From positions 345,349 to 409,348 of the forward strand of contig DASXUQ010000017.1 in the NCBI GenBank assembly GCA_036504735.1: 64,000 bases of DNA, given 5' to 3'. This DNA comes from a bacterium. Its GTDB lineage: Bacteria > Electryoneota > RPQS01. Of this stretch, positions 584-54,880 are shown one piece after another. Each line of letters begins with the position of its first letter. Position 1 is the first letter of the stretch. The translations under genes and the position numbers were made by a program. The notes beneath the pieces are model-generated. The model did not search any database, was not told where the DNA came from, and saw only the letters and a list, made by a program, of their open reading frames with translations.

Positions 584-612
584 TCATCCTTCCGCCTTCA
601 TCCTTCATCCTT
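584..612 (+). repeat. ATCCTTC-type dispersed repeat, copy A
   Basis: CATCCTTC units (CATCCTTCCGCC then TTCATCCTTCATCC) abut and overlap the stop codon of the minus-strand gene. A near-identical copy occupies the same position at 39181-39212, and a copy in the other orientation relative to its gene lies inside coding sequence at 59443-59468. Confidence 0.6.
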
Positions 613-3600
613 ACTTCAGCAGCATCATCTTGTTCATGGCCGTGTAGTTTCCGGCGGTCATCTTCACAAGGTAAAGACCCGAGGGAAGATTTTCGGCATT
701 GAACGTAGCCTGATAGCGGCCCGCGGCATACTTGCCGTTGACCAGCGTGACTACTTCCTGACCCATGACGTTGTAGACGACGATGTTCACCTGACTGTTC
801 TGCGGCACATCGAAGGGCAGCAGGGTGGTCGGGTTGAAGGGATTCGGATAGTTGGCATGCAAGGCAAATACCGTCGGCAGCAGGCCGGGGATTGCCTCAA
901 CGTTCAGAACGGTCATGTCAACGTTGATCAGGAACGGGCTGCCCGGTGCGCTGGCAACCACACGCATTGTGGTGTGGCGGTCGCCCGGTGCAATAGTGCC
1001 CGGAGCCGCCGTGACAGTGATCGTCACAGTCTGTCCCGGATCTACCGTGCCGGTTGCCGGATTGCTGCTGAGCCAGGTCACACTGTCGAGGACCTGGAAG
1101 GTCATCGGGCAAGCGCCTGTGCCGGCGTTCGTGATCGTGAAGGTCTGCGGAACGGTCTCATTCTGATGAGCCACGAAGGTCAACGAGGTGGCGCTGACAG
1201 AGCCAACGGCGGAACGCATCGACATGTTGAGGGTCGTATTGACGTTCTGCTCGACCACGATATTGGCGCGGGCAGTGTCACAATGTGTCGCGTGACGGAA
1301 GGACACGGTATAGGTGCCGGGGGCCACGGGCAGGTTGTAAGCGCCCTGACCATCGGTCTGTGTCGAGTCATTACCCGCACGCACCCATGCGCCGGCAAGC
1401 GCGGTGGGAGGAGTGCCGGCGTGACGAACGACACCCTGAATGGCCTGACGCGGACCGCCCCAGAACTGAACGGCGCCGCCATCGGTCGGGCAGATCGGAC
1501 CCGTGCCGTTGTAGCAGAGTTCGAAGCCAGCGGTATTGTCGCCGTTTTCCAGACCCACGGTCACGGAAGCATCACCGGCAGTCGTCTGCCACTGATACAT
1601 CACACCACCGCTGGGATCCAGCACGAGTTCAAAGGTCACGAGAGCGCCGCCGGAATACATGGGAACGCCCAGCCATGCGATAACAAAACGCTGGTTGCTG
1701 GCATCCGAGTAGTACAGGCACTGGCCGGCCGAGGACAGGTTGAGGTCGTCCCAGAACGGATACAGGCCCAGCGTCGGGTTGCCGGCTTGCGGAACATGCT
1801 GGTTGGTAAAGGTTGTCGACGTGCTGTTGAACGACGCGAAGCCGTTCGAGCAGACGTTGATCGTGTTGTAGGTCTGTCCGAAGTACGGGAAGTTGAAGCC
1901 CAGATCGAACGGGCCGGCACTTATGTCATCACCGGCAATGCCGGTGTTGGTGCCAACGGTCGAAATGTCGATCCAGTTGTATTCCACCGTACGGTACGGG
2001 GAGTTCACAAAACCGGCCGTATCTGCACCGGCGCTCTCGTTCGGCACTTCGTCAATGGCTTTCACCGACCACGTGTACATCTGGCGCGGATCCGGCGGAG
2101 TGTCCGTGTACGAATGCACGCCCGGGGCAACCGGAGTCGCCGTGATCAGCGTGCCGTCGCGATAAACGCGGATGCCGGCCAGGTCAACGCAAGGAGTGCC
2201 GTCCGCATTGGTCGTCGGATCGGCCCACGTAATGCTCATCTGCGTCTCACCAAGCACCGCCAGGCCAACATTGCCCGGGGTTGCCGGAGCCATGTTGCAG
2301 CGGGCGTTGGTCACCACGTTGGACTGAGCGGACAGAACGCCATCATCCCAACGGGCGGCGACGGCATAGCTGTACGGATGGTTCTCATTCGCCGAGCCAA
2401 CGATATCGTCGTACGTCAGAATCGTGCCTGCAACCGAGTCGCGGGCCGTGCCATCGCGGAAGATGACATAGCGAATCACGTCATCCAGCGAATGACCGTG
2501 ACGTCCGGCGGAGCCGGAAGCGTAGACGATCGGGCTGTGCGGGGCCACGCTGGCCAAACGGTGCTGCGCGATTGCCCAGGGGCTCATCGGGCGGGCACTG
2601 GTCGGCATGGCAGCGCGAACGTCAACCTTGCCACTCTTGTTGGCGGCCAAGGCTACGGAAGCGGTGCCCTTAAGGGCCTTTACCGTCTTGGATTCGAGAA
2701 CGGCTGAGAAAGCCGAGGTCGTCGGGGTCGTAACCGCCGGCGACGGGGAAAGTTCTGCCAGGCCGCCGAATGCGCCGGAAGCATAGCAACGGATCATCGG
2801 AATGTAAAGCAGCGGGATGCTTTCCCACGTATTCCACGCGGTACCGTCCGTCGTGTAATAGAAGGTGTTGTTGATATACGGCGTCGTATTGTCGCCGCCG
2901 ATCTCAACGCGGGTCGCTGTCATCTGACGAACGCCGACAAAGAACGAGCCGCTCGGTACCGTGACCGGCGACGCCAGCGTGTAACTGGTGAAAACGTCGA
3001 ACGGAGCGGTCTGAGTCGCATCCGTCAAGCCCAGCGGGGTCGTGGACGGCGTGCCGTTGCCGGCGTCCGCAAAGACGGCGAGCTGGATGGCGTTGCCATC
3101 AACGGCGATACCGGTGAAGAACGCGTCAATCCGCGAAATCGTCGCCGGGCCACTCGTGGTCTGGAAATGCGACACAAACCATGCGGCCGGGAAACCTTGG
3201 TTGAAACCAATACCGCCGCCTTCATCGGTGCCGTCGTCATACAGCAGTTCGGATTCCGGCGGGGAACCCGGAGCGCGCCACGCAAGCTGAATCTTGTTGT
3301 CGAAATTGCCATTGGCCGACAGCATGATCGGAGGAAGATGGCCAAATGGATTCGTCACCATGTTGGAATAGTCGGACTCGACCGGCGGATTGGTGACGCC
3401 GTTGTCAATGGCCGTGATCACGAACTGGTACACGCCGTCGGTTTCCAGCGTATCACGCACCCACTGAGTTGTGCGGCCGGTAACGGTCTGACGGAGGTTC
3501 CACGTCGTTTCGCCCTGCAGTCTGCGGTACACTTTGTACGCATCTACCAGAAGATCCGTCGAGACGTCCCAATGGAGGCTGTCCTTGCGGGCAACCGTCA

Positions 3601-5653
3601 GGACGCTGCTGGTCAAGTTGGTCGGAGCCGGCGGATTGGTGCGGCGCAGCGTCAGGTTGGCGCCGGTATGGCCGCTCTCGTCGAGGTTGAACACCGTCGA
3701 TCCGTCAATGTAACCGGCGAGGGTCGCCGTGACGCGGCGGTTGTTGCCGATCTGCACATTCGACAGCGTATAATCACCGTTCGCGGCCGGGTGAACGGAC
3801 GGGGTGCCCGCGCCGTTGGCACGAACCGCGACAGCCGTCACGTCGCCATTGCCGCCATCCAGCGTCACATGTCCCGTGACCGTCGCATATACCAGCGGGC
3901 CGCCCCAGAACTGAACGGCATTGTTGCCGCCGGGCGTGAACTCACCGGTGGTGCTGCACCACAGGCCAAAACCGTCGCTGCCGTCCAGATTCTCCAGACC
4001 CACGACGCCCGAGGTGTTGCCCATCGCGCCGTAGTTCATGGTGATGCTGCCGCTGCTCGTCAGGATGATCTGGAAATTGTAGAAGGGGCTGCCGCCGAAA
4101 GCCGGGCAATTGTCCCAGCTCACGATGAAGCGCTGATTGGCGGCATCTGCGTAATACTTGCACTGGCCTGCAGTGGGAAAGAGGTCTCTGGCAAAGCCGT
4201 AGACCACGCCGTTCGGCACACCGGCGTTTGGCGGGCAGGGCGGGCTAAGGGTAACGGTCGCATCACCGAAGGTGATGTAGCCGTTGGAGCAGACGCGGAT
4301 CTGCGTGAAAGGCGTATCGTAATAGTTGAAGGTGAAGCCGAGATCATAGGGGCCGGTGTTGATGTCGTCAGCCTGTGCGGCGATGGTGCCGACCGTGGTG
4401 ATGTCCACCCAGTCGTAACCGGTCTCACGCCACGGGGTCTCGCCCACCGCCACAGCAACGCTCGCCGGGGCGCTCATATAGGTGCCGGCCTTCGCGCGGA
4501 CAAAATAGGTGATATGGCCATCCGGCTGAGCGGTGGCCGTAAAGGTCTGAACGCCGGGGCCCACATGGCCGATCTGCTGCGCAGGCAGAACACCGTTGCG
4601 GAAAATCAGAATGCTGTCCGGAGTCAAGGGGTTGCCGTTGGTGTCATGGTTCGGATCAACCCACGTCAGCGTTACGTCGCTGCCGGCGACGGAACCCTGC
4701 AAATTGGTGACAGGATTCGGAACGCCTGTGGGCAGTGCAAACCAGATAACGCGACCGGCCGCAGGAACGAAGCCGAGGTCCGAATTGTCGACGTTATTGT
4801 GGAACCAGTAGCGCGCGCCGTCCGTGGCACCGAGGCCGTCCAAACCACAAGCCCAGTTGCGGCCGGCAAGGGTCGGCATGACCCAATCGGTCGCGTGATA
4901 CTGAACCTTGATCTTGCCACTGGGATAGAGAATCGCTTCAAAGCTGAACAGGTTAGCCGTGCCGTTATATTCCGGCATCCGGCGCCATTCCACCACAAAG
5001 TGCTGATCAGCACCCGTGCCCACAGTCTTCCAGCGGATCCAGGGAGCCGTGCCGTCGCTGTTGCAACCACCGCCCGTGCCCTGCGCGTCACCGGTATTCA
5101 TGTCTGCCCAGAACGGCGCTATATACGGATAGGTCGCTGTTGTCGTTGCCGGATCTGAAGCGGAGAAAGCGGTGTTGGTGCCACCGAACGTGATCAGACC
5201 GTTCGTGGTGACATTGCACGTCGTGTAGTTCGTTCCGTAAAACGAAAAGGTGAAACCAATGGTAGCGGGGGCCGTGGCGTCATCGCCCGTAGGACCGTCT
5301 GTGGCATTGGGGTCGCCGCACAGTTCGATCCAGTTGTACGTGGCGGTATCCGGTGCTACGTTGTCGTTAAAAGCGTAACCGAATCCATCCGGGCCGCCCT
5401 GATTGTCGAGCGGGTTGTGCATCAGACGCGAACTCGGGTTCAGCGCCTGTTCGAGATCAATGCGACTGTCGGTCGTCGCGTTGATTTGCTTGGCCAGGGC
5501 GATGTCCGCATTGGTGAACGTCTGTCCTGACACTGCCTTGGCTTTGATCCGTGCAATATCTGCTTCGCTTACGCCGCTGGCAAAAGCGGACGCCAAACAG
5601 ACCAGCAGCAGTATCGCCGCGACCCAAAGAAAAGACCGTTTTCTGACTCTCAT
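611..5653 (-). CDS. Large modular secreted protein with T9SS sorting domain (1680 aa)
   Basis: The start is supported by a signal peptide (about residues 1-25: MRVRKRSFLW, then a hydrophobic run ending ASAFASG) and by a promoter 46 bases upstream. Visible modules in order: an SNG...PFW beta module (about 85-310), Fn3 (about 311-405), a second SNG module (about 410-585), a carboxypeptidase-regulatory-like domain (about 588-665), Fn3 (about 668-770), a jellyroll-like region (about 790-940), Fn3, a third SNG/PFWDD module (about 1220-1385), another regulatory-like domain (about 1395-1470), an ASH/BACON-like Ig (about 1480-1575) and a T9SS tail (about 1590-1680: NYPNPFNPTTLL, LPSGLYLVKM, KMMLLK). 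I see no catalytic motif. A structural, adhesive or glycan-binding surface role is inference. The last ~90 codons are nearly identical to the gene at 39211-42657. Residues from about 590 onward are paralogous to the gene at 11993-14590. Confidence 0.9.
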   Translation of the reverse strand: MRVRKRSFLWVAAILLLVCLASAFASGVSEADIARIKAKAVSGQTFTNADIALAKQINATTDSRIDLEQALNPSSRLMHNPLDNQGGPDGFGYAFNDNVAPDTATYNWIELCGDPNATDGPTGDDATAPATIGFTFSFYGTNYTTCNVTTNGLITFGGTNTAFSASDPATTTATYPYIAPFWADMNTGDAQGTGGGCNSDGTAPWIRWKTVGTGADQHFVVEWRRMPEYNGTANLFSFEAILYPSGKIKVQYHATDWVMPTLAGRNWACGLDGLGATDGARYWFHNNVDNSDLGFVPAAGRVIWFALPTGVPNPVTNLQGSVAGSDVTLTWVDPNHDTNGNPLTPDSILIFRNGVLPAQQIGHVGPGVQTFTATAQPDGHITYFVRAKAGTYMSAPASVAVAVGETPWRETGYDWVDITTVGTIAAQADDINTGPYDLGFTFNYYDTPFTQIRVCSNGYITFGDATVTLSPPCPPNAGVPNGVVYGFARDLFPTAGQCKYYADAANQRFIVSWDNCPAFGGSPFYNFQIILTSSGSITMNYGAMGNTSGVVGLENLDGSDGFGLWCSTTGEFTPGGNNAVQFWGGPLVYATVTGHVTLDGGNGDVTAVAVRANGAGTPSVHPAANGDYTLSNVQIGNNRRVTATLAGYIDGSTVFNLDESGHTGANLTLRRTNPPAPTNLTSSVLTVARKDSLHWDVSTDLLVDAYKVYRRLQGETTWNLRQTVTGRTTQWVRDTLETDGVYQFVITAIDNGVTNPPVESDYSNMVTNPFGHLPPIMLSANGNFDNKIQLAWRAPGSPPESELLYDDGTDEGGGIGFNQGFPAAWFVSHFQTTSGPATISRIDAFFTGIAVDGNAIQLAVFADAGNGTPSTTPLGLTDATQTAPFDVFTSYTLASPVTVPSGSFFVGVRQMTATRVEIGGDNTTPYINNTFYYTTDGTAWNTWESIPLLYIPMIRCYASGAFGGLAELSPSPAVTTPTTSAFSAVLESKTVKALKGTASVALAANKSGKVDVRAAMPTSARPMSPWAIAQHRLASVAPHSPIVYASGSAGRHGHSLDDVIRYVIFRDGTARDSVAGTILTYDDIVGSANENHPYSYAVAARWDDGVLSAQSNVVTNARCNMAPATPGNVGLAVLGETQMSITWADPTTNADGTPCVDLAGIRVYRDGTLITATPVAPGVHSYTDTPPDPRQMYTWSVKAIDEVPNESAGADTAGFVNSPYRTVEYNWIDISTVGTNTGIAGDDISAGPFDLGFNFPYFGQTYNTINVCSNGFASFNSTSTTFTNQHVPQAGNPTLGLYPFWDDLNLSSAGQCLYYSDASNQRFVIAWLGVPMYSGGALVTFELVLDPSGGVMYQWQTTAGDASVTVGLENGDNTAGFELCYNGTGPICPTDGGAVQFWGGPRQAIQGVVRHAGTPPTALAGAWVRAGNDSTQTDGQGAYNLPVAPGTYTVSFRHATHCDTARANIVVEQNVNTTLNMSMRSAVGSVSATSLTFVAHQNETVPQTFTITNAGTGACPMTFQVLDSVTWLSSNPATGTVDPGQTVTITVTAAPGTIAPGDRHTTMRVVASAPGSPFLINVDMTVLNVEAIPGLLPTVFALHANYPNPFNPTTLLPFDVPQNSQVNIVVYNVMGQEVVTLVNGKYAAGRYQATFNAENLPSGLYLVKMTAGNYTAMNKMMLLK

Positions 5654-11992: not shown

Positions 11993-14590
11993 TTACTTCA
12001 TCAGCAGCATCTTCTGCATCGCCACGAAACTCCCCGCCTGCATCCGGCAGAGATAGAGCCCGCTGGCCACGTCCTGTCCATTCCATGACACCGCGTAGCG
12101 TCCCGCCGGCTGCATCCCATTCACCAGCCTGCCAACTTCCTGCCCCAGCGCATTGTAGATTCTCAATTCAACATGCTCGGTCTTCGGCACGTCATAGCGA
12201 ATCTCTGTGGTCGGGTTGAAGGGATTCGGATAAGCCGCATGCAAGGCAAACACCGTGGGCAGATGGTCGTCCCGATCCGCTGCCCCGACATCACCAACAT
12301 CTACCTGAATTGGCAAAGGGCTACCGGATGCGTTGTGGTACACATACATTGTGGTGTGGTCAAGCGGATGAGTCAATGCAGGTACAATCGTAGACGTGAT
12401 CGTTATGCTGTTACCGGGTTCAACGATCCCGGCCGCCGGGCTGGAACTCAGCCAATCCACACTGTCCACAATACTGTATAGCAGCCGGCAACTACCACCT
12501 GTATTCGCTATCGTAAAGGTCTGCGGTGTGCTCTGCCCTTGGTGAATGTAGAAGGTCAAGGATGAGACGCTGGACGTAAAGGCCGGCGAGCGCAGAGCCA
12601 CGTTCAGCGTGGTATTCACGTTGGCCTCCACCACGACGTTCTGACGGGTAGAATCGCAATGAGCTGTGTAGGCAAAATGCACCGTATAGGTTCCGGGATT
12701 CAAAGGCAGCAGATAGTTGCCCAAAACGTCGGTCAGCACTGTGTCCGCACCGCCCGTAACCCACACCTGCGCTCCATTCAACGGCGGGTTAGCGCCTCCC
12801 AAATGCCGCACGGTTCCTTGAATGGCCTGCTGCGGTCCGCCCCAGAATTGAAGCGCGCTGCTATCTGTCGGACACCAATGTCCGCTGCCGTTGTAGCACA
12901 CCTCAAAGGCATCCGTGTTGGTGCAGTTGACCACTCCCACCGTTGCCGGAATGTCTGCGCCAACCGTTTGATACTGGTACGTCACACCGCCATTGGCGTC
13001 CAGAATCAACTCAAAAGCCGGGCCACCGACAACCACCCACGCAAGAACGAACCGTTGGTTCGCCGCATCGTGATAGTACTTTACCGTGCTCCCCGGAGTG
13101 AACGTTATGTCCTCCCACAGGGGCATCAACGCACACGCGGGGCCGGAAGGGCTGGGAAGGTGCTAATTGAGGGAGGCCGTGCTCGTGCTGTCCGTGAACG
13201 ACGCCCAGCCGTTGGAGCAGACAAAGATGCGATTGTGCGTGTTGCCGTAAAACGGAAATTGAATACCGAGCGCAAACGGTCCCAAGGTCTCATCGCCACC
13301 TGTCAGCCCCGTATTGGTCCCGATGGTGGAGATGTCTACCCAGTCATATTCCACAGGTTCACACATGCACACCAGTATGCGCCCCCGCACGCTGTCGCCC
13401 GGCCCGGCATTCGGCACTTCGTCAAATCCCTGCACCGTCCACGTATGCCAGATCGCCGGGTTCGCCGGTGTGTCCGTAAATTGCTGCACTCCCGGCAGAA
13501 TATGGGTCGCAATCACCTCGTTGTCGCGCAGCACCTGCACACCTGCAAGATCCACGCAGGTCGTTCCATCCGCGTTGAGGGCCGGATCAACCCACGTCAG
13601 GCGCATCTGTGTTTCGCTGATGGGTGTCGCCTGCACATTGGTCGGCGCTCCCGGTGCCATGTTGCAGCGGACGGTCACGGAGTTCGACAGGGGCGACGAC
13701 TCGTTGTCATCATAACGCGCCGCCACTTCATATGTATGGGGCACATTTTCCGGCAGACCATTATCATCCCATGTGGTCGATGCCGCCAGCACCGAATCCA
13801 GCAGAGTGCCGTCTCGGTATATCAGGTACCTCGGCTCATCGAGGGTGCTGTGCCCGTGGCCGCGTGGCGGACGCACGTAGTTCGGGCCGGGAATTCCCGG
13901 AGCATTCCACGCCAGATGAACGTGGCTGTCAAAATTCCCATCCGCCGTCAGGTTGGTCGGCGCCAGATGCAGGTAGATTTGCCGCGCCGTGTTGGAGTAT
14001 GCAGACTCCGCCCAAGGGCGCGACATGTTGGTGTCCACCGCGGTCACCGCATAGTCCCAATCGCCTTCCGCATCCAGATCATCCATAGTTGTATTGTTAT
14101 CGCGTCCCCAGATAGCCTGGCGGAGAATAAACACGTCGGCGCTGTGCTGCTTACGATAGAGCTTGTAGCCATCCACCAGCAGATCCGGCGAAACATCCCA
14201 GTGCAGGCTGTCCAGCCGGAAGGACCACAAAATGGTCCCCGTCAGGTTCAACGGCGCGGGCGGATTATCACGGCGCAGAGACATATCGGCTTCGCTGTAC
14301 CCGCCTTCGGTCAGAAAGACGTGCAGCGTATCGGTTACAAACCCCTCAAGGCTGGCCGTCAGCCTCCGTAAGCCAATTTCCACATTGGTCAGAGTGTAGT
14401 AGCCATTGGCGTTCGGATGGGTCGTGGGAGTCCCTTGACCATCCGCCTGAACCGTGGCTTGGGTAATGTCTCCTATGCCGCCATCGAGAGCCACCGTTCC
14501 ACTCACGGTTGTCTGTGCGGAAACCGATGCCGCACTCAAGATCAGCGCACTTACGGTCGCCAGCAAAATCAAGCATTTCCGAAGTTCCAT
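11993..14590 (-). pseudogene. Secreted Fn3/SNG-module protein with T9SS tail, interrupted by one in-frame amber codon
   Basis: The frame starts at ATG 14590 (GGGAGGAAGCG before it, signal peptide [20 protein letters not shown]) and reads 475 codons to a TAG at 13163-13165. It then continues in the same frame to a stop at 11993, 865 residues if the stop is read through. Modules in order: carboxypeptidase-regulatory-like (about 28-110), Fn3, a second Fn3 with a short linker, the SNG/PFWDD module split by the stop (about 420-590), a regulatory-like domain, an ASH/BACON-like Ig and a T9SS tail (YPNPFNPTTEIR, VASGLYLCRM, KMLLMK). The paralogue at 611-5653 has Gln at the stop position (TNQHVP against LN*HLP), so the simplest history is CAG to TAG. 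Without readthrough the 475-aa product has a signal peptide but no export tail. TAG ends other genes here, so a general recoding is unlikely. Confidence 0.85.
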
Positions 14591-14688
14591 CGCTTCCTCC
14601 CGTCGTGCCGAGTTGTCCGTTCCTTGCCAAGACTCCGGAGAGGCTGGTCGCCTATGCCAGAATCCCGCGAGCTTTCCTGTCCTGCTAA

Positions 14689-14814: not shown

Positions 14815-14843
14815 TTGCCAAACGAGAGCTAACGGCCTATATT
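14815..14843 (+). promoter_or_regulatory. Promoter TTGCCA-17-TATATT
   Basis: The -35 TTGCCA (14815-14820) and -10 TATATT (14838-14843) have a 17-nt spacer. The first possible ATG (14857) lies at the expected transcript start, which supports translation from 14890. Confidence 0.65.
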
Positions 14844-14889
14844 GATAAGTGATATGCCGTCACCGTGTCGCTATGGGAGATCGAGAAAC

Positions 14890-17800
14890 ATGATCTTGAA
14901 ACCGATTTTGTCCGCAGGCATTGGACTGTTTATGGCGGCTGCGTCTTTCGCGGCGTGGCTTCCGGTAGAATCCGGCAACCCTGTAACCGAACCTCAGCTC
15001 TCCATCCGCAGTCTGTCGTCGGACACCTGGCAGGTAGATATTCAGGTCCCCGGCGTGGAGACAGATTTGCAGCGCGTCATGCTGCCCGGAGAACCCGCGC
15101 TCGAAAGCGACGATGCGCCGCCCTTGCCGGTCTACTCGCGCTTCATTGCCCTGCGCTCGCAGGGTAACCCTTTGGTAGAGATCGTCTCGGAAGAGTGGAT
15201 TGATCTTCCCGGTTCGGAATCCCTGTCCTCCGAGCAATTCGATACCCATGCTCTCACCGCAGACATAAGCCCGCGCCAGATCATGGGCGGCGTCTCCCTC
15301 GCGCTGCTGCGCGTCTTTCCGGTCAAACAGGATCCGCAAGCTCACACGCTGCGGGTCCTGCGCCATGCGACTCTGCGCCTGACCGAATCCGGCGCATCCC
15401 TGCCACGGCCACGAGCCATTACCGAAACCGTTGCCAACACTCTAAGGCCGCTTGTTCCCAATTGGGACGACATGGCACTGGATAATCTGGTGGAGCGCGG
15501 TACCTATCTGTTCATTGTGGCGGACAACGGCATGGTGCAGAGCGGCATTCAGAACCTCGCCACATGGCGCACGCGGCGCGGCTACAAGGTAGAAATCGCC
15601 GGACCCAATGAGATTGCCAACTGGAGCACGTCAGGCATCAAAGCCTTCATCCAGAGCCGCTACAATGGGGCGAATCCTCCGCTGGAATTCGTCTGCATCG
15701 CGGGTGACGCTAACGGAACCTACACCGTTCCCTGTTACACCTATGGCGGCGGCGCGGGGGATTGGGATTACACCCGGCTCGACGGCACGGATCTGCTGCC
15801 GGATATTGCCATTGGCCGCCTCTGTTTCGCTTCCGGCGCAGAGCTGGCAGTTATTACCAACAAGGTGCTGAACTATGAACGTGATCCCGTGGCCATCGGC
15901 GGTGGCACTAAGCCCAATTGGTACGCGGGTGCAGGCCTGTTTGCTGGTGGGTCGGGCACCTCTGCGGTTCATACCATGCGCTGGGTGCGTGAGCGCCTGC
16001 TGGAGACAGGATACCCGTCCAGCAGCATCGACACGGTGTATTACACCAACGAATCCGTTGACGGCTCTAAGATAACCAACAGCATAAATTCGGGAGTTTC
16101 CATCTGGTGCTACCGCGGCTATCTCGGCATGAACGGCTTCGAAGGCAATGACTTGAGTGGCCTGAGTAACGGGCGGCGTCTGCCATTCCTGCTCGCGCTC
16201 ACCTGCGGCACCAATGACTTCAGCACCGATGATATTACCGAGCGCTTTGTCCGCGTGGGCAACGGTGGAGCCGTAGCGGCGGTCGGCATGTCCACCTCTT
16301 CGACGCATACGCGCTTCAATAACATTCTCATGACCGGCGCCATGCAGGGAATGCTGCGCGAAGGCAACCGGACGACCGGCGGCTCTCTTATGCGTGCCAA
16401 ACTGGAACTCTACCGAGGCTATCCGACAGACTCGAGCAACGTCGCCTTCTTCAGCGGCATTACGACACTCATCGGTGAGCCGGCCATTGATATTTTCACC
16501 GGCACGCCGGATACGCTGCATGTCAACAATCCCGCCACAGCTCCCGTGGGAACAAACCACTTCGATGTGAGCGTGACGAACCGTCTCGGTCAGCCGGTGG
16601 CCGATGCCTGGGTGAATCTGGTCAAAGGCACCGAGATTTTCGTGGCGGGACGCTCCGATGCTGCCGGATCTGTCAGCTTTAATTTCTCCACCACCACCGC
16701 CGAAACGCTATTCGTCACCGCCACCAAACACAACTGCCGCCCGGCGATTTCCTACACGCTGATCACAGCGGGGGATCCCTATGTTTCCTTAGCCTCGCAG
16801 GCGCTGATCTTCGATGATGACAACAATGGCAACAGTTCCGGCAATGGTGACGGCAAGCCCAATCCCGGCGAGACCATCGAACTCCCGCTGCGGTTGCGCA
16901 ACTGGGGACCTCTCACCGCCACCGGCATCACAGCCACGCTGACCGTCAACGATCCGTATGTCACCGCGCTCAATGTCAACACGGCAAGCTATGGCTCCAT
17001 CGCCGCCGGAGACTCGGTTGCGCCCGCTGCGCCGTTCGTGTTCAGCCTTGCAAGCTATTTCCCCAGCGGTCACGTGGTGCCGTTCTCCCTTACCGTCACC
17101 GATGACGCCTCACACGTCTGGACCACTGCTGTTTCCGTGACACTCTCGAACAGCAAGTACCAGTTCTCAAGCTCAGTGCTGACCGGAGCAGGCAACGGTA
17201 TTCTCGATCCCGGTGAAGGTGCAGGCCTCTATTTCTGGTTGCAGAATGTCGGCACGCGCACGTCGCCCGCCAACATGACCGGCTATCTGCGTTCGTCCGA
17301 TCCCGCAGTAGTCATTACGGACAGCATCGGAGTCTTCGGCTCCGCCGGACCCACCGCTCAGTGCCGGAACTCCAGCAATCTGTGGGGCATCAGCGCCACC
17401 CTCCAGGCTTATCCCGGTGAGCGCGTGCCCCTCACGGTAACGTTTCCGCTGGCCAACGGCTTCACGGATACGGTAAGGACCTTTCTCACTATCGGCAGCA
17501 TCGCGTCCAATGCGCCCACGCCTGCCGACCAGTACGGATATTGGGCCTTCGATAACACCGATGCGGCGTATCCGCGTCATCCGACTTACAACTGGGTGGA
17601 AATTGACCGGCGGCAAGGTGGATCCGGCACCGTGATCGGCCTGTTAGACAACGCCGATGAGCAGGACGCGACTACCGTCGTGGATCTGCCCTTCACGTTC
17701 CGCTATTACGGACAGGACTACACGCAAATTTCTGTCTGCTCCAATGGCTGGCTGGCGATGGGAGCTTCACAAGCCGCTTACACCGATTTCCGCAACTACA

Positions 17801-18978
17801 CGATCCCTTCGGCGATGGGGCCCAATGCCATGATTGCGCCGTTCTGGGATGATTTGCGCGTGGCCGGCCAATCATCGATGACGTCGCATCCGGAAGGCCG
17901 GAGTTCTCTGGATCAGGGAAGCCCCACCTGTCCGGGAACCATCATCACTTCTACACCCTATGCCGATTCCGGAACAACTGTCAATCAGGGCAATGACTAC
18001 TCCGGCTCAACCTGTGCGGTGTCCAACAGCGCCGATGTCTTTTACCAGCTCACGCCGGACGTCACCACCACCTACACCATCTCCCTCTGTGGCAGCAACT
18101 ACGACACCGGCCTGATGATTCGCAGCGGCGGCCCCTGTCCGGGCATCACCGAAGTTGCTTGCAACGATGATTACGGCCCCTGCGGCACTGGCTCACAGAT
18201 TGCCCGGACCCTCGGCGCCGGAACCACCTATTACATCATCGTGGATGGCTACGGTACCTCTCAGGGCAACTACGTTCTGAACGTGACGCGCCTCGGCAAC
18301 CCGGATGGCGTCTACGTCTACCATGATCAGGCCAACCACCGCTTCATCATCGAGTGGAGCGGACTCAGCGTGTCCAAGTGGACCGGATCGAATCTGGAAC
18401 CCGAATCCTTTGAATGCATTCTCTATGAGCCCGGCTATCCTCCGACCCAGAGCGGCGACGGCGAGATTCTCTTCCAGTATCAAATCTGCGCCAATACCAC
18501 CGACGTCACATCCTCCAACGATTACGCCACGGTCGGTATCGAGAATCTTGACCAGACAGACGGCGTGCTCTACAGCTACTACAATCGCGTCAGCCCCGCC
18601 ATCCCCGGCGCGGCGCCCATGATCAGTGGCCGCGCCATTCTCTTTACCACGCAGAAGCTTCCCATCGATACTCCCGCCACGCCCCGCAATGTAACCGCGC
18701 TGCGTGTCGGCGATGACGTCCGGCTGCTGTGGAATCGCGTGACCACTGACGTCCATGGTGACCCCGTTCCGCCGATGCAATACAACGTCTACCGCAGTTC
18801 CAGCGTCCAGTTCATACCGGACGGCAGCACCTTTGTAGCAACAGTCAGTGATACGTCCTATCTTGACGTCAATCCCTCAGCGGCGCGCGCCTTTTACGTC
18901 GTGCGCGCCTATGCTCCCAATGCTGCCGGCGCGATGGGCAACGCCTCTGCTGTCAAGCGCGCCCGCCGCAACGAATAG
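14890..18978 (+). CDS. Secreted C25 (gingipain-like) peptidase-domain protein with inserted PPC domain
   Basis: The ATG at 14890 begins a clear signal peptide (MILKPILSAGIGLFMAAASFA). An upstream frame only adds charged residues overlapping the promoter. The N-terminal ~190 residues resemble the gingipain propeptide. The C25 domain spans about 200-555 (TYLFIVADNG, GYKVEIAG, FVCIAGDANG, DLLPDIAIGRL). The Cys position is kept (LTCGTNDF, about 436), but where gingipains have the catalytic GHG this protein has YRGYLG (about 407), so the His is missing and activity is doubtful. Then come Ig/CARDB-like repeats with a DDDNNGNSSGNGDG calcium-like loop, and an SNG/PFWDD module (about 890-1240) carrying an inserted PPC-like domain (about 1010-1135). 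The last domain is an Fn3. It has no sorting tail and ends in RARRNE, unlike the C25 protein at 42995-48001. Its role could be non-proteolytic. Confidence 0.88.
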   Translation: MILKPILSAGIGLFMAAASFAAWLPVESGNPVTEPQLSIRSLSSDTWQVDIQVPGVETDLQRVMLPGEPALESDDAPPLPVYSRFIALRSQGNPLVEIVSEEWIDLPGSESLSSEQFDTHALTADISPRQIMGGVSLALLRVFPVKQDPQAHTLRVLRHATLRLTESGASLPRPRAITETVANTLRPLVPNWDDMALDNLVERGTYLFIVADNGMVQSGIQNLATWRTRRGYKVEIAGPNEIANWSTSGIKAFIQSRYNGANPPLEFVCIAGDANGTYTVPCYTYGGGAGDWDYTRLDGTDLLPDIAIGRLCFASGAELAVITNKVLNYERDPVAIGGGTKPNWYAGAGLFAGGSGTSAVHTMRWVRERLLETGYPSSSIDTVYYTNESVDGSKITNSINSGVSIWCYRGYLGMNGFEGNDLSGLSNGRRLPFLLALTCGTNDFSTDDITERFVRVGNGGAVAAVGMSTSSTHTRFNNILMTGAMQGMLREGNRTTGGSLMRAKLELYRGYPTDSSNVAFFSGITTLIGEPAIDIFTGTPDTLHVNNPATAPVGTNHFDVSVTNRLGQPVADAWVNLVKGTEIFVAGRSDAAGSVSFNFSTTTAETLFVTATKHNCRPAISYTLITAGDPYVSLASQALIFDDDNNGNSSGNGDGKPNPGETIELPLRLRNWGPLTATGITATLTVNDPYVTALNVNTASYGSIAAGDSVAPAAPFVFSLASYFPSGHVVPFSLTVTDDASHVWTTAVSVTLSNSKYQFSSSVLTGAGNGILDPGEGAGLYFWLQNVGTRTSPANMTGYLRSSDPAVVITDSIGVFGSAGPTAQCRNSSNLWGISATLQAYPGERVPLTVTFPLANGFTDTVRTFLTIGSIASNAPTPADQYGYWAFDNTDAAYPRHPTYNWVEIDRRQGGSGTVIGLLDNADEQDATTVVDLPFTFRYYGQDYTQISVCSNGWLAMGASQAAYTDFRNYTIPSAMGPNAMIAPFWDDLRVAGQSSMTSHPEGRSSLDQGSPTCPGTIITSTPYADSGTTVNQGNDYSGSTCAVSNSADVFYQLTPDVTTTYTISLCGSNYDTGLMIRSGGPCPGITEVACNDDYGPCGTGSQIARTLGAGTTYYIIVDGYGTSQGNYVLNVTRLGNPDGVYVYHDQANHRFIIEWSGLSVSKWTGSNLEPESFECILYEPGYPPTQSGDGEILFQYQICANTTDVTSSNDYATVGIENLDQTDGVLYSYYNRVSPAIPGAAPMISGRAILFTTQKLPIDTPATPRNVTALRVGDDVRLLWNRVTTDVHGDPVPPMQYNVYRSSSVQFIPDGSTFVATVSDTSYLDVNPSAARAFYVVRAYAPNAAGAMGNASAVKRARRNE

Positions 18979-36340: not shown

Positions 36341-38980
36341 TCACCAACTCAGCCAGTAGGTTGCCTTTGCCAGCAGGATGTTGTCCGACCGGGCTTCGAA
36401 CAAGGCGTCTATCGAACGGCGGAAACTGAACTGCCCGCGGCTGTCGTCCTTGCTGCGCCCGTGAGTCCACACCAGATAGAAGGTGGACCCCGGCAGGTAT
36501 TCCCACCGCAGAATCAGGTTGCCTTGCAGCGACCGCACATCAAAGTCCGGCTGGCTGAAACTGAAGGCGTCAGCAGGTCCTCCGCCGTCCGGATCCACCG
36601 TGTAGTTGCCGTCGTCGAGGTGCACCTGACTCGCGTCATAGGTGCGGTAATCATTGCTCCCCGGACGCGATAACTCTTTAAACCTGAAATAGTCCCCCGC
36701 TGAAATCAACGGCTGTGCATAGAACTGCAAACTGAGCCGCGGATTGAAGGTCCAGCTCATGCGGATCGACGACGATAACTCCGTCTGGTTGAGCCGCGCA
36801 AACAGATACCGCGTCCCATAGGTGTTGGTCGCCGTAGGATCCGGGAACTGCCCCACATAAGCCAGAAAATTGTGGTTCCAGTTCAGTGTGGGCGAAACAC
36901 TGACACTGAAATTCGTCACGGGTTTCCACTCTGCGCTGCACCATATGTCGCGGTTCCAGTCCTGCGGCGAGGCGGTGTACCCGTCAGTTCCCAAGCCAAA
37001 CACCCACGGCTCGCGGCTATCCGTATAGCTCTGAAAATCGAGCTGCCAGCCCGCCTTGTTCACCGTGCGCGGTCCGCCGCGTGACCGGAAATCGCTCAGG
37101 GTGTTCGGATTCAACCCCGCTGTCAACTGCAGAGTATAGTAGTTCAGAAGCTGCACGTATCCGCGTCCCCAAACTCCCGCCGACGTGGTTGCCCCGCCGA
37201 AATCCAGGCTGCGAAAGCCTGCACCCAGCACCTGAGCATATCGCGTCCAGTGGGTGGTCTTGGTCCACCGGTAGCCGATACCGTAATGTGCGTTAATCAC
37301 ATCCGCCCGGTACAGAAAGCCGACGTCGTTGATGTCAAAGCCGGGACTGATCACTCCCACGGCGGTGTTCATAAACAAATTGCCCTGTTCCTTGTTCACG
37401 GTCACCCGGCCGGCATAGCCATCGAGGAACGTGGCGGCGCTGTCCACATGCGCATAGGAAATATCAGGCCGTTGATAGTAATGCCGGCTTGACCGCTGCA
37501 GATCGGTGATGCGCTGCGAAGAGCCAGTGATATAGGATCCCGCGCCCCAGGCGGTGAGCACGTAGGTTTTGTTCTTGTCAAGAAAGGTCCAGCCATCCGC
37601 TCCCGCCGTGTAAGCATTGCTGTTGATGTCCGCGCGCAGCGAGTCGGTTTTGAACATCCGGTTGACCGAGTTGAACATGAACCCCAATCCCTGCTGTCCG
37701 CCATTGAACTCCTTCTGTGCCCGGTTCACCGAGTAGTAGGTGGCGGGTTCGGACTCGAAATGTGTCCGCTGACCGAGGTAGGACACATCATCGTACTCCC
37801 GCTGCGTCAGCGCGTGCAGCGTGCCGATGTTCCAGTTGCCGCTGAGTTTGCCGGAAACTTTGGCCGCCCCCAGAATATGCGCGCCTTCCGGCACATAGGA
37901 ATAGTCATAATTGTCCGGTAAATTCCCCTGCGGAGCATGTCCAATGCGTCGGCTGTAGAACAGGCTCGGAGTCGACCAGTTGAATCCCCAGTAATCCGTC
38001 GCTCCTCCCGAGCCGAATTCAAAATTGCGCGAACCTTCCACGAAGAACGGCCGTCGCTCATCGAATGCCGTCTCCACGTCCGAGAGATTGACCACCGCCG
38101 GGTCCACTTCCACCTGTCCGAAATCCGGATTCACCGTAGCATTCAGTACGAGGTTGGAACCCAATCCGATTTTCACATCCGCGCCCCCCGTTTCCCTGTA
38201 TTCGGACGGTGGCACAAACGGGTTTCCCGGCTCGCGTAGACGGTAGCGGGCCCTCGTGCGTGCGTAGGGCAGCAACTCCACATAACGCGGCGCCGTGATC
38301 GACTCCAGCCCCACCAGATTCCAGAAGCGCGACACAAAGCCGCTGCCGTTCTTGGGGGTGAACACCAGATAGTCATCTTCGTGCCGGCGGCCAATGCTGC
38401 GATGGAAGTTGATCCCCCACACATACTGGTCCTGCGGCAAAAACCGAAGCTGCGAGAACGGGATGCGGAATTCCGCTGTCCATCCCTGAACATCGGCGCT
38501 GACGGCTCCTTCCCACACGCCATCCCAGGAGTCGTCCGACCAGGTATCATTGTACCGCACCGCATCGTAGCGCGACCCCGCCGCATTCAGGCCGAAATGA
38601 TAGCCGCTGCGGCGGTCATGAAACGGGTCAAGGTAGACCGTAAATAAGTCGGCTTCGGTCAGCACATCCCGCCGCACCAGCCGCCTCAAAATCGAATCCG
38701 GCGCCGAATCATACATCCGCGCGCCAATGTACAGCGCGTGGTCATCGTACAGCACCGTCACCTCGGTCTTCTCCGAGGGGAGTGAGTATTCTACCGGATC
38801 CTGCTGGGCAAAGCGGTTTACAGCTTCGCCGGCCCGCCACACCTCCTCATCCAGCCGCCCGTCAATCACCGGCGTCTTGGAGATACGTGTGGCCCTGACT
38901 GTGGTGGAATCTTGAGCCCAAGCGGCATCATCAAGGGCCATGCATAACAAAACTAAGAAACAGAGTAAGAATTGGCGCAT
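36341..38980 (-). CDS. DUF5916 protein with CBM9-like N-terminal domain, probable outer-membrane barrel
   Basis: The start at 38980 gives a signal peptide (MRQFLLCFLVLLCMALDDAAWAQ) and an 879-aa protein. A longer frame to 39556 runs through the upstream gene's terminator and end and must be artefactual. No good ribosome site is visible. Residues about 30-235 are a CBM9-like beta-sandwich (PVIDGRLDEEVW, DDHALYIGARMYD, FTVYLDPFHDRRSGYHFGLN, GWTAEFRIPFSQLRF). DUF5916 follows (about 250-879): TVNPDFGQVEVDPAVVNL, DERRPFFVEGSRNFEF, RRIGHAPQG. Its long series of amphipathic strands ends in an aromatic C-terminus (YWLSW), as in outer-membrane barrels. The family is often found with TonB-type uptake proteins. 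The substrate is unknown. Confidence 0.88.
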   Translation of the reverse strand: MRQFLLCFLVLLCMALDDAAWAQDSTTVRATRISKTPVIDGRLDEEVWRAGEAVNRFAQQDPVEYSLPSEKTEVTVLYDDHALYIGARMYDSAPDSILRRLVRRDVLTEADLFTVYLDPFHDRRSGYHFGLNAAGSRYDAVRYNDTWSDDSWDGVWEGAVSADVQGWTAEFRIPFSQLRFLPQDQYVWGINFHRSIGRRHEDDYLVFTPKNGSGFVSRFWNLVGLESITAPRYVELLPYARTRARYRLREPGNPFVPPSEYRETGGADVKIGLGSNLVLNATVNPDFGQVEVDPAVVNLSDVETAFDERRPFFVEGSRNFEFGSGGATDYWGFNWSTPSLFYSRRIGHAPQGNLPDNYDYSYVPEGAHILGAAKVSGKLSGNWNIGTLHALTQREYDDVSYLGQRTHFESEPATYYSVNRAQKEFNGGQQGLGFMFNSVNRMFKTDSLRADINSNAYTAGADGWTFLDKNKTYVLTAWGAGSYITGSSQRITDLQRSSRHYYQRPDISYAHVDSAATFLDGYAGRVTVNKEQGNLFMNTAVGVISPGFDINDVGFLYRADVINAHYGIGYRWTKTTHWTRYAQVLGAGFRSLDFGGATTSAGVWGRGYVQLLNYYTLQLTAGLNPNTLSDFRSRGGPRTVNKAGWQLDFQSYTDSREPWVFGLGTDGYTASPQDWNRDIWCSAEWKPVTNFSVSVSPTLNWNHNFLAYVGQFPDPTATNTYGTRYLFARLNQTELSSSIRMSWTFNPRLSLQFYAQPLISAGDYFRFKELSRPGSNDYRTYDASQVHLDDGNYTVDPDGGGPADAFSFSQPDFDVRSLQGNLILRWEYLPGSTFYLVWTHGRSKDDSRGQFSFRRSIDALFEARSDNILLAKATYWLSW

Positions 38981-39109
38981 AGGAGAGAGGTTATGGCGGT
39001 TTCTTTTGAAGACACTAATCCCCATAAGCATTAGATGGACTTCCCCCCAGGATGTTTCAGCCGATTGGAAAGGACGCCCCGTGTGCCCGATCACCCACCC
39101 GCACAAACA

Positions 39110-39141
39110 AAGCAGGCTCCCTTTTACAATGGAGCCTGCTT
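39110..39141 (-). terminator. Intrinsic terminator with AGGCTCC stem
   Basis: AAGCAGGCTCC (39110-39120) pairs with GGAGCCTGCTT (39131-39141). The minus-strand tail is TTTGTTTG. It ends the transcript of the 1148-aa gene. Confidence 0.85.
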
Positions 39142-39180
39142 GTCTAACCTTCAAGACTAAAGCGTCAGGATTCGGTTTTC

Positions 39181-39212
39181 CCTTCATCCTTCCGCCTTCA
39201 TCCTTCATCCTT
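39181..39212 (+). repeat. ATCCTTC-type dispersed repeat, copy B
   Basis: TTCATCCTTCCGCC followed by TTCATCCTTCATCC runs into the stop codon of the 1148-aa gene, exactly as in copy A at 584-612. Both copies are also followed by the shared AAAGCGTCAGGATTCGG flank. Confidence 0.6.
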
Positions 39213-42200
39213 ACTTCAAGAGCATCATCTTGTTCATGGCCGTGTAGTTTCCGGCCGTCATCTTCACAAGGTAAAGACCCGAGGGAAGGTTTCCAGCGTC
39301 GAAGCTGACCTGATACCGGCCCGCCGCATACTTGCCGTTGACCAGCATCGCCACTTCCTGGCCCATTACATTGTAGACGATAATGGCCACCTGACTGTTC
39401 TGCGGCACGTCGAAGGGCAGCAGCGTCGTCGGGTTGAAGGGGTTCGGATAGTTGGCGTGCAGGGCAAACTCCGTCGGCAGCAGGCCGGGAAGCTGGTCCA
39501 CCGACAGCACGTTCATATCCACCTGAAGGATGAACGGACTGCCCGGCGCGTTGCACAGCACTCGCATCGTGCTGTGGTACTCATTCGGCTGCATGGTACC
39601 GGGGGCTGCCGTTACGGTGATCGTCGCACTCTGGTTCGGATCCACCGTGCCGCTGGCCGGTTCGCTGCTGAGCCAGTTCACGCTGTCCAGCACCTGATAG
39701 CTCAACGGGCAGTTCCCGCCCGGGTTGGTGATCGTGAAGGTTTGCGGCACCGTCTGGAAGCGGCGCACCACAAAGGTCAGCGAACTGACCGACAGCGTGG
39801 CATTGGGCGAACGCAGCAGCACATTCTCCGTCACGTTCTGTCCCGCAGCGACGACGACACCGGTGAGCACCGAATCGCAATGCGTAGCGTGCCGGAAGTG
39901 AACCGCGTAGGTTCCCGGCTCTACCGACAGGCGGTAGTTTCCACCGGCATCCGTAACCGCCGTATCGATGCCGCCTGTGGCCCACACCTGCGCGCCGATC
40001 AGCGCCGGGTTGGTACCGCCCATATGCCGCAGTGTTCCCTGAATCGCCTGGCGCGGAGCCAGCCCCCAAATGGTCATGTCGTCAATGAAGAATCCCGGGT
40101 AACCGCTCAAATACGTCCCGAATGTGAAGCGGAACATCGGGGTCTGATTGAGAAAGTCTCCGAGAGGCAGCACTACGTTACGCCAGCCGCCACTGGTCAT
40201 GCTCCAGGCGCTGTCGGTAGGAATGCAGGTATTGAACGGATACATGAAACTGCCATAGCCGTCCCGCGGCAGCAGTGGCTGCCACGTCAGACCGCTGTCG
40301 ACGCTGACCTTGACATTGCATCCGTCATAAGAACCGAAGGGGTACATGGACCACCATGCCGCGAATTCCAGCGTGGCGCTGGTCGTGGAAACACGCTGCC
40401 CGGGGCTCAGGTCAAGATGGCCGCAAACGTTGCTCTGATAGTTGCCGTCAAGTCCTGTTCCCCAGACATTCGCGCCGCTGTGCGGCTGTGGAGCGGCGGC
40501 ATTGGTCGGAGCGCCCCATGTCCAGACTCCGTCTGCAATCCATCCGCCGTCGGTCGTGTCAAAACTGCAGGCATAGGATGGATTACCCACCACCACCGGC
40601 GCGTTGACCGGTGTGCTGAGCCGTGTGCCCGCTTTGGCGCGGACATAATAGCGCTGATTGCCCTGTGGCTCACCCGCCAGTGCGACCGTCTGTGCGCCGT
40701 GCGCCACATGCCCGATCTGCGACGCTGGCTGGGAGTTATTGCGGTAAATCAAAATGCTGTCGGATATCAGCGGGTTGCCGTTGGTATCCTGCGTCGGATC
40801 GGTCCAGTTCAGAGTCACCGTGGTTGTACCGTTGGCCGTGCCATGCAGTCCGGTTACCGGTCGCGGCGTGCCATCCGGGCGCGGCCCCATTCCCCAAATG
40901 GTCATGTCATCGAAGAAGAAGCCGGGGTACTGATTCCCGCTGAAGGGGCTCGATGAGAAGGAGATCCGGAAAATCGGAGTCTGATTGATGTACGCGCCAA
41001 TAGGCACGATCACATATCGCCAGCCGTTGCCGGCCATACTCCAGCCATTCTCGCCGGTCAGGCACGCGCTCGGCGACTGAATGACGTTGCCGTAGCCGGT
41101 CGACGGGGTCAGCAGGTCCCACGTGTCGCCGCCGTCGACGCTGACCTTGATATTGCATCCATCGTACGGAGACCAGATATACATGCTCCACCAGGCCCAG
41201 AATTCAATGGTCGCATTGGCGCTCGCCACCTGCATGCCGGGGTCCAAATCCACGTAGCTGCACACGCCCGCCGGATAGTTGGCGGCCAAGCCTGTTCCCC
41301 AGCAATTGGCTCCGCTGTGCGGTGCGGGAACGGCGGGGTTGCTCGGCGCTCCCCACGTCCAGATTCCATTCGACGTCCAGCCGCCATCGTTCACGTCGAA
41401 GAAGTTCACGTATGACGGCGTGCCTACGATAACTCCCACCCCGGTGGCGGCGCTGCGGTACGCCCCTGCCTTGGCGCGGACATAGTAGGCGATGTTTCCC
41501 TGGCGCTCATTGGCTATCGAAAACGTCTGTGTCCCATGCGCCACGTGACCGATTTGCGAATCGGGAACCGCGCCGCCGCGGTAAATCAGAATGCTGTCGG
41601 GCGTCAGCGGATTGCCGTTGGTATCCTCGGCCGGATCGGTCCAGTTCAGAGTCACCGTCGTTCCGTTCGCGGAACCCGTCAACGCAGTCGCCGGCTCCGG
41701 CACGCCGTCGGGCATCGCAAACCAGATCGCCCGCCCGTTGGCCGGTTCCTGATTCCCCGGAGTACCGTTGTTCACATATTGCAGGAAGCCTGAACCTGCC
41801 GTTCCGTTCTGCTGAATACCGATGGTGGAACTGTTGGTGCTGGCTCCGAAGACCAGATTATTATACTGCAGCTTGATATTGCCGCTGGCATAAAGGATCA
41901 CCTCAAACTTGAGAGAGGTGCCGTCACTGCAGCAGTGCCCTATCGAATCGTATTCGATCACCGTGTAGTCACCGAAATTCAGGCAGGCAATCGTGGCATC
42001 GCCGTTGGCACCGTTGCCGCCGAAATCGAGGTGCAAGTCATCCCAGTACAGGAAGATCGTCGGACCCATCTGGCCCGATCCCGCATTGGGCAGCGAATTG
42101 TTGGTGTAGTTGGGGTCAGAGGAGGCAAACTGCACCGTGCCGTTCGAACTCACGGTGACGCTTGTGTAATTTGTGCCATAAAACGGGAAGGTCAAGCCCA

Positions 42201-42657
42201 GCGGGACATTGGTGACCACCGCATCGTCATGGCTCCCCGTGAAGTTCACCCACGTGGCGTTATCGTCACCCCGCAGTTCCACCCAGTCATAGGCGGTGGT
42301 ATCGCCTCCCTGATTGTCCACGTAAATGTAGCCGAAGTCATCCGGACCGCCCTGATTGTCCAGCGGGTTGTGCGGATGCCGCGCGTCCCGAAGTGCCGTC
42401 CGCCACTCAATCTCCCGCTTCTCCTGCTCGGTCAAAAGGGCTCCGCTGCGTAGCTTTTGAAGAAGCGCCTCAAAGGACTCAGCCTCCTGCCGGGAAAAGA
42501 CCCGGTCCGCCACCGGCGTGAGCGTTTCCCCCGCTATCGGCTTCGCTGTCAGGCGACCGTTCCCCGTCTGATGGACCGCCGCCGCGAACACTACCGTCAA
42601 GCCGAAGAGCAGTACGAGGGCCGCCGCCGTCAGAAATAATTTCTTCCGAAGGTTCAT
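39211..42657 (-). CDS. Secreted protein with tandem Fn3/jellyroll units and T9SS tail (1148 aa)
   Basis: The signal peptide is MNLRKKLFLTAAALVLLFGLTVVFA. A propeptide-like helical linker follows (about 30-92), then an SNG/YWDD module (about 95-320). Two consecutive units come next, each an Fn3 (TVTLNWTDP.(E/Q)DTNGNPL) plus a choice-of-anchor-J/MAM-like jellyroll (GGW...G.WTWGAP...PHSGAN.WGTGL...DGCN(I/V)KVS(V)D.G..W...DDMTIWG), at about 322-610 and 615-897. A carboxypeptidase-regulatory-like domain, an ASH/BACON-like Ig (LSVSSLTFVVRRFQTVPQTF) and a T9SS tail (about 1060-1148) end the protein. The tandem units indicate an internal duplication of about 290 residues. MAM-like jellyrolls often bind glycans or mediate adhesion, so a surface role is likely but unproven. 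It has its own promoter and terminator. Confidence 0.9.
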   Translation of the reverse strand: MNLRKKLFLTAAALVLLFGLTVVFAAAVHQTGNGRLTAKPIAGETLTPVADRVFSRQEAESFEALLQKLRSGALLTEQEKREIEWRTALRDARHPHNPLDNQGGPDDFGYIYVDNQGGDTTAYDWVELRGDDNATWVNFTGSHDDAVVTNVPLGLTFPFYGTNYTSVTVSSNGTVQFASSDPNYTNNSLPNAGSGQMGPTIFLYWDDLHLDFGGNGANGDATIACLNFGDYTVIEYDSIGHCCSDGTSLKFEVILYASGNIKLQYNNLVFGASTNSSTIGIQQNGTAGSGFLQYVNNGTPGNQEPANGRAIWFAMPDGVPEPATALTGSANGTTVTLNWTDPAEDTNGNPLTPDSILIYRGGAVPDSQIGHVAHGTQTFSIANERQGNIAYYVRAKAGAYRSAATGVGVIVGTPSYVNFFDVNDGGWTSNGIWTWGAPSNPAVPAPHSGANCWGTGLAANYPAGVCSYVDLDPGMQVASANATIEFWAWWSMYIWSPYDGCNIKVSVDGGDTWDLLTPSTGYGNVIQSPSACLTGENGWSMAGNGWRYVIVPIGAYINQTPIFRISFSSSPFSGNQYPGFFFDDMTIWGMGPRPDGTPRPVTGLHGTANGTTTVTLNWTDPTQDTNGNPLISDSILIYRNNSQPASQIGHVAHGAQTVALAGEPQGNQRYYVRAKAGTRLSTPVNAPVVVGNPSYACSFDTTDGGWIADGVWTWGAPTNAAAPQPHSGANVWGTGLDGNYQSNVCGHLDLSPGQRVSTTSATLEFAAWWSMYPFGSYDGCNVKVSVDSGLTWQPLLPRDGYGSFMYPFNTCIPTDSAWSMTSGGWRNVVLPLGDFLNQTPMFRFTFGTYLSGYPGFFIDDMTIWGLAPRQAIQGTLRHMGGTNPALIGAQVWATGGIDTAVTDAGGNYRLSVEPGTYAVHFRHATHCDSVLTGVVVAAGQNVTENVLLRSPNATLSVSSLTFVVRRFQTVPQTFTITNPGGNCPLSYQVLDSVNWLSSEPASGTVDPNQSATITVTAAPGTMQPNEYHSTMRVLCNAPGSPFILQVDMNVLSVDQLPGLLPTEFALHANYPNPFNPTTLLPFDVPQNSQVAIIVYNVMGQEVAMLVNGKYAAGRYQVSFDAGNLPSGLYLVKMTAGNYTAMNKMMLLK

Positions 42658-54603: not shown

Positions 54604-54650
54604 TGTACCGCCTAGGGGATTCGAACCCCTGTTACCGGCGTGAGAGATCG
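54604..54650 (-). tRNA. tRNA-Glu(CUC) 3' fragment, 5' half missing
   Basis: Read on the minus strand: anticodon loop CTCTCAC, 3' anticodon strand GCCGG, TAACA, T-arm AGGGG-TTCGAAT-CCCCT and acceptor 3' strand AGGCGGTA. This is the 3' half of a glutamate tRNA. No matching 5' acceptor (ACCGCCT) or D-arm precedes it. The bases before the loop (CCGAT) pair only partly with GCCGG. The break at the anticodon loop is typical of tyrosine-recombinase attachment sites, and the following terminator looks like the gene's original one. It cannot be a functional tRNA. Confidence 0.7.
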
Positions 54651-54880
54651 GTAAGTAAAAGGCTGTAAACCCTTGTGTTAGCTTGTCTCCAGTTTCATCT
54701 GCCAGCAAGTGCCACCGTCCCATCCGCGTGCATGTGACCCCGACTTCATGCAAGCGACAGCCAACATCGTGACCTATGTTACTGGCCTTCAAATCCCGAG
54801 AAGGGCAGGAGGGAGGGGAACGGCCCGGCCGTACCATCCAGCAGAAAGCCTGAGCACTCGCTCAAGCTTTCCTTTAGCTA

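Follow-up and report, generated by a model that had tools for sequence, protein, structure and literature searches.

Belinky et al. (2021, PMC7918605) report that many bacterial genes carry in-frame stop codons, that most of these do not last long, and that one example is of the TAG/CAG kind. The stop described here is like these in being a single TAG with CAG as the likely sense state and flanks that are still coding. The gene that carries it resembles T9SS type A cargo (TIGR04183 / PF18962), with a signal-peptide-like N-terminus, repeated Ig, Fn3, and CarboxypepD_reg modules, a C-terminal tail scoring above the curated cut-off, and SprA encoded in the genome. It differs from its cargo siblings in having a TAG ahead of the tail and in being shorter and more diverged. 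Our literature search found no paper joining T9SS, the C-terminal domain, pseudogene, and premature stop.

The reading that we favour, with a probability of about 0.6, is that one gene in a large family of T9SS cargo has recently undergone a nonsense mutation. This single substitution, probably from CAG to TAG, would lie in the gene of a T9SS-exported multidomain surface protein and would be real in the sequenced population. Translation would then end at codon 476, giving a product without half of the nidogen-like module, the second CarboxypepD_reg domain, and the T9SS sorting tail. Such a product would be exported by Sec but, having lost the sorting tail, would not be sorted to the surface, and the gene would in effect be either a pseudogene of recent origin or a null allele that is polymorphic. 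The features concerned are collected in Table 1.

Table 1. The interrupted gene, its parts, and its intact paralogue. Positions are those of the window, the whole stretch of 64,000 nt that was analysed; the interrupted gene is read on the minus strand.
Feature	Position	Strand	Content or evidence
ATG start of interrupted gene	14588..14590	-	Strong SD GGGAGGAAG just upstream, about 14593-14601
Upstream half, 475 codons	13166..14590	-	Signal peptide (by eye), CarboxypepD_reg, Fn3-like domains, first part of nidogen-like module
In-frame TAG, codon 476	13163..13165	-	Sequence and homologue alignment column
First possible restart codons after TAG (TTG, ATG)	13124..13129	-	Sequence
Downstream half, 389 codons and TAA	11993..13162	-	Rest of nidogen-like module, CarboxypepD_reg, weak BACON/Ig match, T9SS type A sorting tail
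Intact paralogue, 1680 aa	611..5653	-	CAG at position matching TAG

The initial annotation had claimed that a lone TAG interrupts one reading frame and that the two halves belong to one gene, and both claims hold. From 14590 to 11993 (-) the locus forms a single frame of 865 codons, closed by a TAA at 11995-11993, in which the TAG is the sole in-frame interruption. When the stop is read as sense, the frame matches its paralogues contiguously, with E values of about 1e-180 to 1e-200, far beyond chance. Residues 245-865 of the interrupted protein align in one piece with residues 1052-1680 of the paralogue at 611-5653 (52% identity), and residues 28-234 align with its residues 591-798 (49% identity). 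All 16 aligned homologues, of which five come from the same genome and the others from related genomes, are continuous across the stop region. Because all of these are uninterrupted at the site, both halves are parts of one gene; none of the 16 has the halves as separate genes, the arrangement that would have spoken against this.

A genuine fission, with the halves as two separate functional genes, could make use of the TTG and ATG that lie 34-37 nt past the stop. These restart codons lack an SD, however, and the downstream half of a T9SS cargo protein would be without a signal peptide, which makes an independent gene unconvincing. The break would also fall midway through the nidogen-like module, across which the aligned homologues are continuous, and we regard fission as hardly credible.

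No congeneric genome was among the relatives; a search of genome contigs with the single protein returned no relative, and an alignment-based search of genome contigs returned distant relatives only (Zixiibacteriota, Cloacimonadota, Calditrichota, Ignavibacteria, and similar groups). The disabling TAG is absent from the 16 aligned homologues, and no in-frame stop was found among the relatives' matches listed. Viral contigs do not contain the exact 20-mer around this codon.

The domain content places the protein among T9SS cargo. Its N-terminus is signal-peptide-like over 26 residues, as judged by eye, and Pfam matches comprise two CarboxypepD_reg domains (one at aa 28-105 of the upstream half), Fn3, and, past the TAG, Por_Secre_tail. 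The TAG lies inside the nidogen-like module, and the sorting tail is encoded solely downstream of it, scoring 36.9 bits against TIGR04183, the NCBIfam T9SS type A sorting domain (cut-off 23), and 30.3 bits against PF18962 Por_Secre_tail (cut-off 27). The T9SS translocon SprA is encoded in the same genome (TIGR04189, 586.5 bits; 753.5 bits with neighbours; cut-off 200), and a protein deprived of its sorting tail should therefore be affected. The window also encodes two Peptidase C25 (gingipain-family) proteins, one at 14842-18978 (+), divergent to the interrupted gene, and one at 42995-48001 (-) with a C25 propeptide and a T9SS sorting tail.

The codon before the change had been called very likely CAG. 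In the nearest paralogue, Gln (CAG) does stand opposite the TAG (TNQHVP versus LN*HLP), and CAA occupies the column in two distant homologues. The column is variable, however, with Q, T, A, P, V, M, S, G, E, or C across the homologues, and the CAG itself comes from that single paralogue. Since the column varies in this way, Gln is unproven at the site; judged from the alignment, CAG to TAG is the likeliest history, and Gln is likely rather than certain.

The downstream half had further been described as free of decay. This is correct for stops and frameshifts, with none further in the 389 downstream codons, but the interrupted copy deviates from family-conserved residues beyond all other family members, and it does so on both sides of the TAG. 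It departs at 11 of 57 conserved columns upstream and 18 of 85 downstream, compared with at most 13% upstream and 10% downstream in other members of the same taxonomic family. Its maximum-likelihood terminal branch is equal on the two sides (0.53 upstream, 0.56 downstream), longer than those of most same-genome siblings and inside the range of the related-genome homologues. As the copy is equally diverged on both sides, its divergence is older than the TAG, and the equal branch lengths speak against the downstream half having decayed on its own for long; the TAG itself has left no mark yet on this copy. The intact downstream frame caps the neutral age of the stop at roughly 1-8% divergence. 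At the 95% level, the absence of further stops alone limits neutral divergence since the TAG arose to 8%, and the limit falls to about 1.4-2.3% with indels counted, assuming that indels are 10-20% of substitutions and that about 80% of indels are frameshifting.

The sibling paralogues (L002-L006) show a separate pattern at their C-termini, where the sorting tails in the last 90 or so residues are near-identical (branch lengths 0-0.1) and the rest of the proteins are diverged. The sorting tail of the interrupted copy is far from those of its siblings, with a branch of 0.56. This suggests that the sibling tails were homogenised by gene conversion and that the interrupted copy was excluded.

The main rival to a recent mutation is that the real gene is intact and that the TAG stems from one wrongly sequenced or assembled base, or from a minority variant that became fixed in the consensus. 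One wrong base would look identical to a mutation in this assembly. The TAG is the sole lesion in 2.6 kb of otherwise clean frame, a sense codon lies one base away in the nearest paralogue, and among 153 own-genome matches to the protein, the interrupted copy alone has an in-frame stop. Against an error, long genes elsewhere are intact, including the closest family members (1680-2477 aa, stop-free), and the window's one suspicious gene overlap is a start-codon artefact. The intact long frames suggest a clean assembly, though one wrong base may still occur in it, and we hold an error to be possible rather than probable. A recent change and a sequencing error, two of the three options offered by the initial annotation, both stay in contention.

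The overlap just mentioned, between 36341-39556 and 39211-42657, was considered as a frameshift and rejected, as 36341-39556 scores non-coding over roughly its first 500 bases. This gene, on the minus strand, encodes a DUF5916/CBM9 protein, and its listed start gives it a 346-base overlap with the previous gene. Given the non-coding scores, this start was called about 500 bases too early.

A different possibility is readthrough at a useful level, through amber suppression or a programmed signal, so that a truncated protein in the periplasm would exist beside a full-length one at the surface. The intact downstream frame, without acceleration past the stop, would fit this, as would the coding-like codon score kept in the downstream half, which is also expected under low-level readthrough. 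In general, near-cognate tRNA-Gln allows low-level readthrough of UAG. The translation machinery of the genome points the other way. The Gln amber-suppressor tRNA that might have been expected was not seen: none of the 46 tRNA genes above the Rfam cut-off, all inspected, has a CUA anticodon, in a genome that is 97.95% complete and in which a tRNA could be missed. These 46 genes serve all amino acids, and no CUA tRNA appeared in the five of six weaker matches that were inspected, the sixth, a 20-base fragment, being left out. RF1 (prfA) is present at 512 bits. TAG is a common terminator, ending 129 of 597 called genes (814 kb of the genome) and 6 of the 26 genes within the window, which agrees with the earlier view that the genetic code has not changed globally.

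The surroundings of the stop likewise argue against readthrough. The stop is conserved in no homologue, and the RNA past it shows no folding advantage over shuffled sequences (z 0.23 and -0.64), giving no stimulatory structure. Its 10-base context CAATTAGCAC has one further genomic occurrence, no more than a reversed control, and is thus not a recurrent element. A survey for split genes by codon score was too noisy alone; a refined version gave 79 same-frame neighbour pairs, among which the intervening stops were TAA in 29, TGA in 29, and TAG in 21, with no excess of TAG over TAA or TGA. Ten other same-frame junctions were tested for a split domain, and none was convincing: nine had no domain spanning the stop, and the tenth had a sub-cut-off glycosyltransferase match alone, its edge overrunning the stop. 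With amber recoding (pyrrolysine, TAG reassignment of the code 15/16 type, or suppressor tRNAs) the locus therefore shares an in-frame TAG and nothing else, since no CUA tRNA was found, RF1 is kept, TAG is a frequent terminator, and inside TAGs are not recurrent. Dedicated readthrough, the third option of the initial annotation, is poorly supported and can be largely set aside, and useful-level readthrough is very unlikely. We also consider it highly improbable that the stop in this T9SS surface protein is leaky, so that the cell would make a truncated protein for the periplasm and a little full-length protein for the surface.

A recent nonsense mutation, our preferred reading, would add another in-frame stop, probably a short-lived one, to those on record, here among redundant paralogues of which the cell can probably spare one. 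With no machinery found in the genome for TAG as an amino acid, the case is ordinary, and it would be so even if the stop is real, given that in-frame stops are reported to be widespread in bacteria (PMC7918605). Its importance beyond annotation is small. Gene callers will list two proteins in place of one, and the downstream one will enter annotations as a T9SS protein that lacks a signal peptide.

Two tRNA-like elements were encountered along the way. One, an odd tRNA-like gene at C15:18117-18187 of the genome (G000; L073:218-288), was considered as a suppressor and rejected, its 8-base anticodon loop TTTAGAGG ('taga') being without CUA. It has an encoded CCA, lies directly after tRNA-Gly(CCC), is unnamed by ARAGORN, and has a partial tmRNA-domain match in Rfam of 29 bits, below the cut-off. 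The other, at 54606-54666 (-) in the window, is a tRNA-like fragment with an intact T-arm, matching RF00005 at 27 bits (below the cut-off) and receiving no call from ARAGORN. It adjoins a long inverted repeat, ACAGTGGTTCAGTCA / TGACTGAACCACTGT, and is possibly a tRNA remnant or an integration scar.
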